From an uncultured Alphaproteobacteria bacterium (GTDB lineage: Bacteria > Pseudomonadota > Alphaproteobacteria > Methylaequorales > Methylaequoraceae): a DNA stretch of 64,000 nucleotides. Below the pieces are notes generated by a model, which did no database searches, was not told the DNA's origin, and saw nothing but the letters and a program-made list of their open reading frames with translations. This document shows positions 18,621-24,445 of this stretch, piece by piece (positions within the stretch are counted from its first letter, which is position 1; every line of letters starts with the position of its first letter). The translations under genes were made by a program, and so were the position numbers. The stretch covers positions 1 through 64,000 of the forward strand of contig CABYVV010000004.1 in the NCBI GenBank assembly GCA_902522465.1, read 5' to 3'.

Positions 18621-18707
18621 GCCCCTATGGCGGAATTGGTAGACGCGACGGATTCAAAATCCGTTGAACTTCGGTTCATGTCCGTTCGAGTCGGACTAGG
18701 GGTACCA
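18621..18707 (+). tRNA. tRNA-Leu (anticodon CAA)
   Basis: GCCCCTA/TAGGGGT acceptor, anticodon arm ACGGA-TTCAAAA-TCCGT, long variable arm, GTTCGAGTC T-loop, encoded CCA. Confidence 0.95.
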
Positions 18708-18742
18708 TCTTAACTAAATGACAGTAAGAGTTTTAGATTTGA

Positions 18743-18767
18743 TATATTGTTTTGACAACAAACATTT
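18743..18767 (+). repeat. 25-bp direct repeat, copy 1 (TATATTGTTTTGACAACAAACATTT)
   Basis: Exact match to 20235..20259; same spacing after each tRNA-Leu 3' end. Confidence 0.9.
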
Positions 18768-18807
18768 GAGTATCCAAAAAAGTGTGATAGGAAAAAACTT
18801 TATATCC

Positions 18808-19791
18808 TTAATCAACTTTTAAATATTCAAAAATGCAATCACTCCATATTGAGTGAAGCTTTTCATTTGGGTGTCCTTCATCTTTTACAATATACTTTTC
18901 CTCAAGTTTTTCTTGATTACAGTCAAGATATTCAATATTGTTTTTTTCAAAAAATAATTTCATTTGCGATACTTTACTTGTAGAACTATTTAAGAATAGA
19001 TTAACGAAAATAATCCCATTTTTATTTGAAATTTCATTCATTTTTTTAATAATTGTATTAGTTACCAAATATCTTTGTTGGTATCTTTTTTTAGAAACAA
19101 AATACATAATCCTTTTTTCAACAAAATGTATCAATGACGAGTATTCACTTAGAGGTATTTTAAAATATTTTGTTACATCACTTTTTATTAAATTTTTTTT
19201 ATCTAATGTTACAAAAGGTAAATCAATTGCTCCTCTTTTTGAATATTGATAAAGCATTTTCAACCATGAATCTTGTGCAATATTTCTTAAGTCATGATGT
19301 TCAACATATCCATAAAAAATAAATTTTATTTGATCATTTTGTTTTAAAAGTTGTTTTAGTTTCAAAAAACTTTGGAAGGTTCCATAACCACCAACACCAT
19401 AGTTTTCTATATTAAATTTTTTAATTCTACTTTGGAGTTTAAAGGAAAAAGTTTGAAAATTATCAACTGCAAAACCTTGAGTAAAAGATCCCCCAATAAA
19501 AATAATTTTTTTAACCGATTGATTATCATACAAATCGAATCTTCCAAATTTTGTAGTTGTTAATTCAGTATTTTTACCATCAGAACTCCATGGACTAAAT
19601 TTAAATGATCCTATTTTTGGTTTCCAACCTAAAATATTATCATATTCATTAGTCTGGGGTTCTTCAATTGTCTTTTCAGAAAAGATGAATGGTTCCTCAC
19701 CAAAAAGTCTTAATAAAATTTCTAATGAAAAAAATAATATTAAAATTGAAAAAATTAATGTTGATGAAGTGAAAAGTATTTTTTTAATCAA
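18808..19791 (-). CDS. SGNH/GDSL-type hydrolase-like protein
   Basis: VKKIIFIGGSFTQGFAVDNFQTFSFKLQ (GxSxTxG block I-like), NYGVGGYGTFQ, late DEGHPNEKLHSIWSD (DxxH-like). Confidence 0.7.
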   Translation of the reverse strand: MIKKILFTSSTLIFSILILFFSLEILLRLFGEEPFIFSEKTIEEPQTNEYDNILGWKPKIGSFKFSPWSSDGKNTELTTTKFGRFDLYDNQSVKKIIFIGGSFTQGFAVDNFQTFSFKLQSRIKKFNIENYGVGGYGTFQSFLKLKQLLKQNDQIKFIFYGYVEHHDLRNIAQDSWLKMLYQYSKRGAIDLPFVTLDKKNLIKSDVTKYFKIPLSEYSSLIHFVEKRIMYFVSKKRYQQRYLVTNTIIKKMNEISNKNGIIFVNLFLNSSTSKVSQMKLFFEKNNIEYLDCNQEKLEEKYIVKDEGHPNEKLHSIWSDCIFEYLKVD

Positions 19792-20143
19792 GTTTTATTC
19801 CATTTTGTATCTCTATTACAAGTAAATAAAAAAAGTGGTCAGTCATTTTTTTTTTCATAATTCATCCTACTAAAATTAATTTGCTTCTAAGATATTTGGT
19901 ATTTAAAAGAAAGTAACGAAAAATTTTAAACAACCCCTTATATTTATAAAAAAGTATCTTTGTAATCTTCAGACATCAATTAAAACTATTTAAAGATATA
20001 ACCCCACTCCCTTGATTTCTAAGGTAATTAATTTCCCATTCATAGCGATATCCTTAGAGATTTTGAAAAAAAAACATTGACACCAAACATTGACACCATT
20101 TTAGAAAGTCAATGTAGTCAAGGGTTATAGACCCAACGCAACT

Positions 20144-20202
20144 GATTCAAAATCCGTTGAACTTCGGTTCATGTCCGTTAGAGTCGGACTAGGGGTACCA
20201 TC
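20144..20202 (+). repeat. partial second copy of tRNA-Leu 3' half (att-like direct repeat)
   Basis: GATTCAAAATCCGTTGAACTTCGGTTCATGTCCGTTAGAGTCGGACTAGGGGTACCATC, identical to 18651..18709 except C to A in the T-loop. Confidence 0.9.
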
Positions 20203-20234
20203 CAAACTCAATTTGAGTAGGGGCTTAGACTAGT

Positions 20235-20259
20235 TATATTGTTTTGACAACAAACATTT
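20235..20259 (+). repeat. 25-bp direct repeat, copy 2 (TATATTGTTTTGACAACAAACATTT)
   Basis: Exact match to 18743..18767. Confidence 0.9.
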
Positions 20260-20370
20260 TCTAGTGTTATAGACATTGATACTATACTCTTCATATGAGA
20301 ACTCCAAAACCTAGATCCGAAAACAATCTTCAATTAAATCTATAAACAATATTCTGAAAAAATTTTAATT

Positions 20371-21555
20371 CTAGAAAAATAAATAAAATAAAGATACGAA
20401 ATCTTCCTGATTTTCCTGTTGAAATAGTAATTTTTCTTCATTATCTAAAATCTTTTTATTCCAATAATATCTTGTTATCAAAGACATTATGTTAATGAAA
20501 TCGTTTGTGCTCATGCTTCTTTTATGAATTGAACTAAAAATTAGTAATAATTTTGTTATTAATGCTACAAAAAAAATCAAATTAAAGTGTTCTTTAGCAT
20601 CTAAGTCTCTATTTGTTAGAAAAGAAATTCTAGAAAAGATCTCATGAATAAAATATTTTTTAAAGAGGTTGTCATATACGCTTTCAAATTTTTCAACAAT
20701 AAGATTTCTATTTTTAGAGAATTTAAAAATTAAATCTTTTGAATTCATTTCTATAAAACTCAACTGATAAATTTCATTTACAAAATCTGAAAGTTTATTT
20801 TGCATTTTCTTTTTTTTGAAATTTTTCAGTACATTCTTTACAAAAACAATTTGCTGATCATTATTTTCACAAATTTCAAAATTATGTTTAAGGAAAAATA
20901 ACTTTATATAATTAAATACCTCTTTGGTCTGATTTATATTTAAGTGATTGTTCTTGAGCTCTTTGATAATTATGTTTGTAATTGACAAACAGACTTTTAG
21001 AGAAATATTTTTGTTGTTAAAAATTTGATATAACAAATTAAAAACTTTTTCTGAGTTAACTGCATATTGATCGTTTCTAAATTCATTAGGAATCAATTTT
21101 ATATTTTCATTTTTGTACTCCTCATTATCATCATTAACTATTTTTAAATTATCTATGTCAGAAAATACTAATCTTGAAACCTCTGGGCAACTTAATGATA
21201 AAGATTTGAGTTTTTTAGAACCAAAATTAATTTCTGTTCTCGGAAAATTTGAACATACTGGAGATAATAATTCCTTTGAATAATTTTTCTGAACTTGACA
21301 CAAATTTTCTGAATCTAAAAAAACACATCTTCCATTTTTTTTTGTTCTATGAATTACTGCAAATTTATCAAATGTTGGATTTTCATTTTTTGAAATACCC
21401 TTTCCTAAGTTCTTGTCTTTATGTGAAATATATTTTGCGAAAGTTTCAACATCTAAGTCAATTCTCCACCCAATACAACAAGAGTTTGGACATTTAGAGC
21501 CAATACATTCGAACTTATCATAATATGCTGTTTTGACCATAAACTTGGTCAGCAA
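20371..21555 (-). CDS. flagellin lysine-N-methylase (FliB)-like cysteine-cluster protein
   Basis: YYDKFECIGSKCPNSCCIGWRIDLD, GRCVFLDSENLCQVQKNYSKELLSPVCSNFPR. Confidence 0.75.
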   Translation of the reverse strand: MLTKFMVKTAYYDKFECIGSKCPNSCCIGWRIDLDVETFAKYISHKDKNLGKGISKNENPTFDKFAVIHRTKKNGRCVFLDSENLCQVQKNYSKELLSPVCSNFPRTEINFGSKKLKSLSLSCPEVSRLVFSDIDNLKIVNDDNEEYKNENIKLIPNEFRNDQYAVNSEKVFNLLYQIFNNKNISLKVCLSITNIIIKELKNNHLNINQTKEVFNYIKLFFLKHNFEICENNDQQIVFVKNVLKNFKKKKMQNKLSDFVNEIYQLSFIEMNSKDLIFKFSKNRNLIVEKFESVYDNLFKKYFIHEIFSRISFLTNRDLDAKEHFNLIFFVALITKLLLIFSSIHKRSMSTNDFINIMSLITRYYWNKKILDNEEKLLFQQENQEDFVSLFYLFF

Positions 21556-21845: not shown

Positions 21846-21937
21846 AGAATAAAAAATATAAATAATAACAAATGCACAACAAGTATAAAATTAATTAATT
21901 TGATTTAATAATAAAAACTTTATTAAATACTAAAAAG

Positions 21938-24445
21938 TTATCCATTTCTTAATAGAGAATAAGCACTAAAGTTTATATAATTTCTATTTGAAAATAATAA
22001 TGTCACCACTAGGATTAATAAAAATAGGCTTGAGATAATTAAAGGAACTGTGAAAGAAAAATACCAACTAATACTAAAATAATTTATTATAAAAAAGTAC
22101 GCGAATGCTACAGAAAATGCTAAAGAAGTTATTAAAATAGGTATAGATAATATTAAAGATTCAAAAATTATTAACCTAATAATATTTGATTTCTCAAGCC
22201 CTAGAATACTTAAAACTAAATTTTGATATACTTTTAAATTTCCTACTACGCTTATAGCATTGGATATAACAATTAGTCCGATTAATATAACAACACCGGA
22301 AATCAGAATGCTAACAACAAATAATTTGTTTAAAAAGTTTTTTGTTTTTTTTATATACTCAGATACTTTGATATAGGTCATTGTCGGTAATTGATTTATT
22401 AAGTTACTTAAATTTACTAATTCATCGTCTTTAAATTTTACAGTAGACAAAAATTCGTGAGGAATTTTTGAAGCATATTGGGGATTGAATAATATTGCAA
22501 AATTAATGTTTAAATCTTTATAATCAACTTTTCTAAAGTTTGTAATAGTCCCTGTGACAGAATTACCATAGATATTAAATGTCATCGAATCACCAATTCT
22601 TAGGTTCAGATCACTGGCAACTTTAAAATCTAAAGAAATTTTCAGATCGCTTTCTTTGTCTGAATCCCACCACTTACCCTTTGTAATTGGATTATTAATT
22701 GGCGGATCCTTTACCCATGATATTCTTCTCTCGCCATTTATAAACCAAAAACTTTTATTATTTTCATCTATAATTTCTTTCGGTTTTTTATTATTTATTG
22801 CCTCTATTCTTGCGGATATCATTGGTACAATAATTTTCGTTGCATCAAAATCAATCTCTCTAATCTGCTCTGAAAATAAACTCAAATCATTTTGTTGAAT
22901 TCCTAAAAAGAAATAATGTGGAGCATTTTTCGGTATCGAAGTATTTAATTCTTTATTTATATTAGAAGATAGAATCCCAAGAAAAAATAGCACATTTATT
23001 CCTAATCCCATCGTCATAATTATTATGGAATTCAGACCTTGATGTGCTTTTAAATTTTTAATTCCCATTTTTATCGATATATTTTGAATACTTTTAATTC
23101 TATTTAAAAATAAAATATAGACCTTGGATAAAAAGAAGTAGAAAAAACTAATAATTATGAAAAATAAGAAAAATATAGCTGTTTGTAGTGGTTTAACATT
23201 TAAAATACAAAAAGAAAAAATAAATATGGTTAAAAAAACTCCAATTTCAAAAAATGATTTTCTACTGTAAACCAAATTCAGGTTTGATTTACTATTCCTA
23301 AATAAATCTGCTACTTTAATTTGGTCAATACTATTTAAAACTGGTTTAGCGAATATAAAGAATATTAAAATACTAAAAAATAAAATTGTTAAGAACTCAT
23401 AGATTTTAAATTTGACCTTTAATTGAATATTTAGAAAATTTAAAAGACTATGATCTAAAATAGAAATTGTAAGTAAACTAAATATGTAAGCAAAAAAAGA
23501 ACAAAGAATAAGTATAATTAGTATTTGTAGGTAGTATAGCAATTTAATATTCTCAGAACTTAGTCCTAGTGACTTGTAAATCGCGATCTTAAATTGATTG
23601 TCACTTAAAAATGAAAATAATGAATTTTTTAATCCTACGCCAGACATAAGAATTGCTGATGCTGAGATTATAGATAAAAAATAAATAAAGTTTTCAATAG
23701 CTTTTTTCAAATTTTGACTTACATCATCTGGATATTTGATTTCTATATTTTTATTTTTACTTAAGTTATTTAATTGTTCTTGATTATTTTTCTTTTTCAA
23801 AAGTTTATACTTAAAAATAAAAAAACTTCCTAAGTTGTTAATTTTCATATCTTCAAAGCTAGATTCATTTATTAATGCTTGATCACCAAAAAGAAAAAAA
23901 CCTCCAATATCTGGGAGACTTTCTATAACTCCAATAACTTCAAGTGAAGTGTTTTGTATTGTTATTTTTTCACCAAGTCTTAAATCAAGATTATTTTGGG
24001 TGGTTTTGTCAATCAGAATTGTGTTTGGTTTGCTTTTAAGTAATTTTAGTGAATCAACAGGCTCAACAATTACATTTCCAATAAGCGGATAGAAGTTATC
24101 AATTACTTTAATTCTTGTTGTTTTGCTTTCCTCATGGTTAGTTCTTATGATAGAAGTAAATTCGATAATCTTAGTCATAAAAAAACTTTCTTGTAATTCA
24201 TCCAATAATTTGATGTCTAAGGCTTCATTTTTTGTAGATAATTCCACATCACCTCCAAGAAGAACTCTTGAATTATTGTTTATTTGACTTTCTATACTAT
24301 TTTTAAGAATTGTGACTGACGAAAAGATTAATAAGCTTATAAAAATTGCAAAGAATACTTTTGTAATCTTTGATTTATTTTTATTAAGCTCTTTTATAAA
24401 AAAATAAATATATTTAGAAAAAATCATGTTCAAATTTTTATGCAA
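21938..24445 (-). CDS. ABC transporter permease, FtsX/YbbP family
   Basis: 835 aa, multiple TM segments, MacB/FtsX-like periplasmic domains; pairs with the adjacent ATPase. Confidence 0.88.
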   Translation of the reverse strand: MHKNLNMIFSKYIYFFIKELNKNKSKITKVFFAIFISLLIFSSVTILKNSIESQINNNSRVLLGGDVELSTKNEALDIKLLDELQESFFMTKIIEFTSIIRTNHEESKTTRIKVIDNFYPLIGNVIVEPVDSLKLLKSKPNTILIDKTTQNNLDLRLGEKITIQNTSLEVIGVIESLPDIGGFFLFGDQALINESSFEDMKINNLGSFFIFKYKLLKKKNNQEQLNNLSKNKNIEIKYPDDVSQNLKKAIENFIYFLSIISASAILMSGVGLKNSLFSFLSDNQFKIAIYKSLGLSSENIKLLYYLQILIILILCSFFAYIFSLLTISILDHSLLNFLNIQLKVKFKIYEFLTILFFSILIFFIFAKPVLNSIDQIKVADLFRNSKSNLNLVYSRKSFFEIGVFLTIFIFSFCILNVKPLQTAIFFLFFIIISFFYFFLSKVYILFLNRIKSIQNISIKMGIKNLKAHQGLNSIIIMTMGLGINVLFFLGILSSNINKELNTSIPKNAPHYFFLGIQQNDLSLFSEQIREIDFDATKIIVPMISARIEAINNKKPKEIIDENNKSFWFINGERRISWVKDPPINNPITKGKWWDSDKESDLKISLDFKVASDLNLRIGDSMTFNIYGNSVTGTITNFRKVDYKDLNINFAILFNPQYASKIPHEFLSTVKFKDDELVNLSNLINQLPTMTYIKVSEYIKKTKNFLNKLFVVSILISGVVILIGLIVISNAISVVGNLKVYQNLVLSILGLEKSNIIRLIIFESLILSIPILITSLAFSVAFAYFFIINYFSISWYFSFTVPLIISSLFLLILVVTLLFSNRNYINFSAYSLLRNG

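Follow-up and report, generated by a model that had tools for sequence, protein, structure and literature searches.

The window, by which we mean the whole stretch of 64,000 nucleotides that was analysed, carries an intact tRNA-Leu(CAA) gene and, downstream of it, a displaced copy of the 3′ half of the same gene. The 59 bp at 18651-18709 recur at 20144-20202 with a single mismatch (C to A in the T loop), and a weaker match continues leftwards as far as 18643/20136. A 25-mer at 18743-18767 is repeated exactly at 20235-20259, and shuffles of the window gave 0 matches to it even when three mismatches were allowed. The preliminary description had reported the 59-bp repeat with its one mismatch and the 25-mer after both copies, and our comparison reproduces them. 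No further displaced tRNA-Leu(CAA) copy was found in the rest of the window's own genome. The features assigned at the locus are as follows.

18621..18707, plus strand: intact tRNA-Leu(CAA) found with ARAGORN, the putative site of insertion, whose 3′ half provides the common core and the predicted attL of cassette 1
18708..18767, plus strand: left end of cassette 1, including the 25-mer 18743-18767 (left-end class common to loci L038, L034, L109 and others; exact 25-mer)
18808..19791, minus strand: cargo gene of cassette 1, encoding a 327-aa SGNH/GDSL-hydrolase-like protein (open reading frame, weak Pfam GDSL match, motifs)
19940..20135, plus strand: right-end module of cassette 1 (identity to right ends in genomes G018 and G016)
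20074-20085 and 20087-20098, plus strand: tandem arm-type repeats ACATTGACACCA in this module, located by sequence
20136..20202, plus strand: displaced tRNA-Leu 3′ half, the predicted attR of cassette 1 (sequence comparison with the intact tRNA)
20203..20320, plus strand: left end of another and older element, in which the 25-mer recurs at 20235-20259 (matches to G028 and G015)
20371..21555, minus strand: gene for a 394-aa protein with a CxxCxxCC domain, probably carried as cargo by the second element (Pfam PF03692 match narrowly under the cut-off; homologues near or inside arrays)
21934..22073, no strand assigned: probable distal array edge and start of the conserved flank, an FtsX/ABC block (alignment to G003, G015 and G025)

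The right-end module of cassette 1 matches the right end of a G018 cassette of otherwise unrelated content at 90% identity over 198 bp, a comparison in which it reaches ∼196 bp upstream of the core, and is 94% identical over 99 bp to G016. The second copy does lack a tRNA 5′ half, as first described, but the stretch preceding it is an arm common to unrelated elements in relatives and not a decayed 5′ half. Cassette 1 holds one gene, again as first described. Pfam GDSL matches of the 327-aa product are weak and below cut-off, and its family matches are remote and partial only; the motifs GGSFTQG and DEGHPN are visible in the translation.

Beyond the displaced half the window contains the left end of a second element, so that it holds one complete unit and the beginning of another. 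This left end matches the stretch directly 3′ of the intact tRNA-Leu in G028 (81% over 128 bp) and a stretch in G015 (85% over 83 bp). The 394-aa CxxCxxCC gene is probably its cargo; homologues lie near or inside the array in G010, G003, G031, G026, G016, G015, G013 and G017. Of the two origins previously offered for the extra 25-bp match, a long att core can be set aside because the 25-mer is located in the left ends of two successive elements, and serial integration is supported. No recognisable right-hand tRNA copy of the second element is present at 21934..22073, a stretch that aligns at 80% with what immediately follows a displaced tRNA copy in G003, and likewise in G015 and G025. The alignments probably place the array edge near 21934. 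In G003 the conserved FtsX/ABC/GDSL block (L048:5582-9518) that forms the array flank elsewhere has a weak tRNA-Leu copy on either side; some of the flank may therefore have originated as an ancient cassette.

The relatives searched with the tRNA were 13 genomes from the genus and 32 from the family, the order-level set being the same 32 genomes. A 100% identical copy of the intact tRNA-Leu(CAA) was found in 21 of the 32, and in many family genomes the intact gene and several displaced 3′ halves lie together on one contig. The family arrays contain ∼80 displaced halves, with 0 in the opposite orientation, and these delimit ∼60 cassettes; the unit count of 60 takes in those lying 3′ of the tRNA and those on contigs that lack it. 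Unit length ranges from 0.2 to 12 kb, most commonly 1.0–1.3 kb, and 32 of the 60 units hold exactly one open reading frame of at least 150 aa, the threshold used for this count. The site has an intact RNA gene at one end and a partial 3′ repeat at the other, several units are stacked in it, and the content differs among relatives. The window is thus one unit of a family-wide cassette array and not the isolated scar it was taken for. The search among relatives for an empty site, proposed earlier, gave no strictly empty site; instead, the same tRNA was found with many different occupancies. An exact scan for the right-end-plus-core pattern, using one genome per species, returned 17 stretches, all from uncultured Alphaproteobacteria or from the ‘Rickettsiales’ MAGs MED715 and MED657. 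Judging by such names and by its general features, the host family is probably HIMB59/AEGEAN-169.

Two further groups of tRNA-Leu copies were seen. In one, a 3′ half with arm lies on contigs away from the main array (L046:1165-1293, G001:C1:246886, G006:C4:57095 and G009:C6:1475); the similar identity of these off-array halves, 84–85%, suggests an old second location. In the other, seen in four genomes (L031:7973-8050, L033:6412-6457, L115:4379-4447 and L130:6826-6892), degenerate copies that also include the 5′ part of tRNA-Leu are found upstream of the intact gene.

Cassettes of unrelated content have common sequence upstream of the copied tRNA half. It comes in two recurrent arm types, which contain tandem repeats, for example ACATTGATACAAGACATTGATAC or GTGTGATAGTAAAGTGTGATAG. 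Counts of the arm motif average 0.93 for each right arm and 0.09 in background, a roughly tenfold enrichment. Pairwise similarity exceeded the 99% shuffle level in 42% of pairs of right arms and 10% of pairs of left sides, a contrast that is indicative since some of the pairs are homologous cassettes. A left end, of which the 25-mer is part, is common to a subset of cassettes, and two such left ends follow one another in the window.

The identity of the displaced copies to the intact tRNA falls with array position (Spearman −0.46, n = 46); permutation within arrays gave p = 5e-5, which is the floor for 20000 shuffles. Copies further from the tRNA are thus the more decayed ones, and the probable point of entry for new units is beside the tRNA. 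The gradient could also owe something to recombination that favours young copies, which resemble one another.

In an all-against-all comparison of the 60 units, 36 fell into shared groups and 24 were singletons, and units of shared groups were found at different array positions and in different genera. For example, the alkaline-phosphatase cassette takes third place in G011 but second place in G016 and G017. Order is exchanged in two cassette pairs: the FkbM cassette lies ahead of the MFS cassette in G006 but behind it in G009, G002 and G004, and two cassettes are swapped between G016 and G017, where one of 0.7 kb is first in G016 and third in G017. A 1.2-kb cassette found in three genera (G025, G030 and G018) is 98.0–98.8% identical, and a 4.3-kb cassette in G011, G016 and G017 is 99.2–99.4% identical. 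As a control with one housekeeping gene, the XerC catalytic-domain DNA of cross-genus pairs sharing these cassettes is 61–67% identical, and that of G016 and G017, which belong to one genus, 81%. On the left, identity continues into the tRNA half in all eight of the cassette pairs compared; on the right it ends at CCA in seven of the eight, the exception being G009/G004, in which the next cassette is also shared.

The cargo scan covered ∼40 of the 149 cassette open reading frames. Apart from cassette 1, the cassettes carry genes for methyltransferases (FkbM among them), an MFS transporter, glutaminase, asparagine synthase, proteins of the GIY-YIG, T5orf172 and HNH types, and unknowns. One carries an alkaline phosphatase with acyl- and acetyltransferases, and another a metallophosphoesterase with a glycosyltransferase-DAGK fusion; alkaline phosphatase/acyltransferase and metallophosphoesterase/glycosyltransferase cargo would fit phosphate-stress lipid remodelling. 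The predicted functions suggest an ecological use for the cargo. No transfer, packaging, replication or integrase genes were found in cassette 1 or among the ∼40 scanned frames, and cassette 1, with its one gene and none of these functions, is not a prophage, ICE or IME.

A profile search of the 32 genomes found no tyrosine recombinase (PF00589) inside any array. Matches elsewhere were present in 31 of the 32, mostly Xer-like by length and score. Serine recombinases (PF00239) were likewise absent from the arrays; two genomes matched, on contigs with no visible array. The att-like structure at a tRNA with no integrase, as proposed from the window, is supported, and the integrase-bearing cargo between the same repeats that had been suggested as a check was looked for in the family arrays and not found. 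The absence is provisional because the assemblies are incomplete and contigs often end at repeats; an integrase-bearing unit at tRNA-Leu(CAA) could have been overlooked in them. As regards a vehicle, exact searches of a viral collection for the core, for the right end and for each of the two arm-repeat types returned nothing, nor did protein-pattern searches of it with two mobile cargo proteins; a phage collection gave tRNA-like similarity only and a plasmid collection nothing.

Integrases do occur at other tRNA genes of these genomes. Integrases of ∼390–460 aa adjoin tRNA-Thr(TGT) or the half displaced from it, and most of the genomes concerned have a single displaced copy; in L097-L100, L103, L117, L118 and L120 a 389-aa or 457-aa integrase lies beside the intact tRNA-Thr(TGT) or the displaced 3′ half. 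The two ends are ∼2–28 kb apart, some of the islands carry methylase- and restriction-like genes, and they look like ordinary integrase-bearing islands. In the four loci read, a DUF6538-type integrase homologue of ∼420 aa is found directly 3′ of tRNA-Leu(GAG) (L123:8805-10070, minus strand; L122:8555-9820, plus; L121:8186-9424, plus). Orthologues are present in 20 of the 32 family genomes, with divergence as if vertically inherited. The box I Arg is changed to Ser/Thr, the box II His and Arg are mostly replaced, and the N-terminal domain is strongly conserved; this is possibly a domesticated DNA-binding protein. We considered it as a trans factor for the tRNA-Leu(CAA) cassettes and do not favour it, because the expected catalytic residues are missing and its distribution, in assemblies that are incomplete, is mismatched: it was not found in G018, G027, G028 and G031, all with displaced tRNA-Leu(CAA) copies, and is present in G020 and G022, where no displaced copies were seen.

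Taken together, we consider it likely that tRNA-Leu(CAA) acts as a hot spot at which very small cassettes are inserted serially and site-specifically by a recombinase acting in trans. Each cassette consists of one or a few genes, followed by a right-end module of ∼50–200 bp with tandem arm-type repeats and by its own tRNA-Leu 3′ half. A tyrosine recombinase would join this site (attP), probably carried on a circle, to the same sequence in the intact tRNA. The tRNA would be rebuilt at the left, with the earlier 3′ half and all older cassettes pushed to the right, so that arrays would grow outwards from the tRNA whilst old copies decay. The architecture, sharing, order swaps and polarity are read from aligned sequences. 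From these we infer the type of recombinase, the circular intermediate and the movement of cassettes from cell to cell; since the cassettes carry no recombinase gene, integration must come in trans, and mobilisation presumably does so too. Homologous recombination between the repeats could account for part of the shuffling and sharpen the polarity. A more elaborate form, in which gene plus tRNA-half att cassettes with a common arm circulate family-wide as an integron-like economy served by one dedicated trans recombinase, is conceivable, and we put it forward with considerable doubt.

It is also possible to dispense with an active integrase. Cassettes would now move when imported DNA undergoes RecA-dependent homologous recombination at the repeated tRNA halves and arms, and the repeats, as scars left by old integrations, would supply the homology. 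The long near-identical repeats (∼60 bp of core plus 50–200 bp of arm) are suitable homology, and the arrays encode no recombinase. However, exchange would then be expected at any copy, whereas the decay gradient indicates entry beside the tRNA; moreover, most left sides have no homology outside the tRNA half, leaving only ∼60 bp on one flank. We regard this explanation as unlikely. Less probable still is that each unit is the relic of a larger island whose integrase was deleted after insertion, that is, CIME formation in place. Such decay is a described route, and integrase-bearing islands are present at tRNA-Thr(TGT) in the same genomes. Nevertheless, small cassettes are 98–99% identical end to end in different genera, which argues that they travel in small form, and random deletion is not expected to give compact coding and a modal size near 1 kb. 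Many of the matching genomes are single-cell assemblies (AG- and AH- names), which are prone to chimeras, so an assembly or amplification artefact was weighed together with tandem tRNA duplication and loss of the 5′ half. Yet the pattern is also present in MAG contigs MED657 and MED715, all copies share a single orientation, and what precedes the copies is a foreign arm that is conserved, which upholds the earlier suggestion of a mini-element over duplication. Neither origin is really credible.

The serial insertion of small cassettes invites comparison with integrons, whose cassettes are units of one or a few genes, each with its own 3′ recombination site, in one orientation and with the newest at a fixed end. 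The tRNA-Leu arrays share all of these properties, and the outcome is integron-like and family-wide, with architecture and sharing well supported by the alignments. The site itself differs, being half a tRNA plus arm repeats, and the PF00589 search found no integron integrase at the array. Folding of 20136-20260, a stretch that is partly tRNA, gave z = −1.7, with 11 of 200 shuffles equally stable; this is not convincing for integron-type single-strand folding as the mechanism at the site.

Closer parallels are found at other RNA genes. In the parts of the studies consulted, additive flexible genomic islands are described at tRNAs of Ca. Actinomarinales (PMC7771536) and, with 20-bp repeats at tRNA-Lys, of Methylophilaceae (PMC10872708). 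Like the tRNA-Leu(CAA) arrays, these are small cassettes at tRNAs of streamlined aquatic bacteria, the recent ones with a partial tRNA repeat, although the clade and the tRNA are different. What is documented for the tRNA-Leu arrays is the common right-end module with arm repeats, the decay gradient, the order swaps and the near-identical cassettes across genera. Dehalococcoides likewise has tandem islands 3′ of one RNA gene, ssrA, bounded by its 3′ repeat; 15 of 31 ssrA-specific islands have no integration module, and for these it was suggested that they are cis-mobilizable elements (PMC3146451). The ssrA units are larger and about half carry a CcrB-like integrase module, whereas no recombinase was seen in any tRNA-Leu unit and single-gene units predominate. 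CIMEs, as reviewed in PMC5704250, keep attL and attR, have no integration genes and are stacked at one site. Cassette 1 also keeps attL and attR and has no integration or transfer genes, but CIMEs are described there as decay products of ICEs or IMEs, whereas the minimal tRNA-Leu units are themselves common to several genera. Tycheposons, from partial accounts (PMC10872708 and others), are similarly tRNA-bounded cargo elements of marine bacteria, of 4–200 kb and with a tyrosine recombinase; no array has a PF00589 match, the integrases lying at tRNA-Thr instead.

A term search of the HIMB59 phosphate-island study (PMC10734472) returned no tRNA-bounded island. Streamlined ocean bacteria have few recognised mobile elements, yet they exchange genes, and the tRNA-Leu cassette would give this exchange a concrete unit, defined by sequence, whose boundaries are exact and whose order in the array records relative age. 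On our best reading of the sequences, the tRNA-Leu array represents site-specific accretion of tiny elements, comparable to the additive flexible islands and the Dehalococcoides ssrA arrays.
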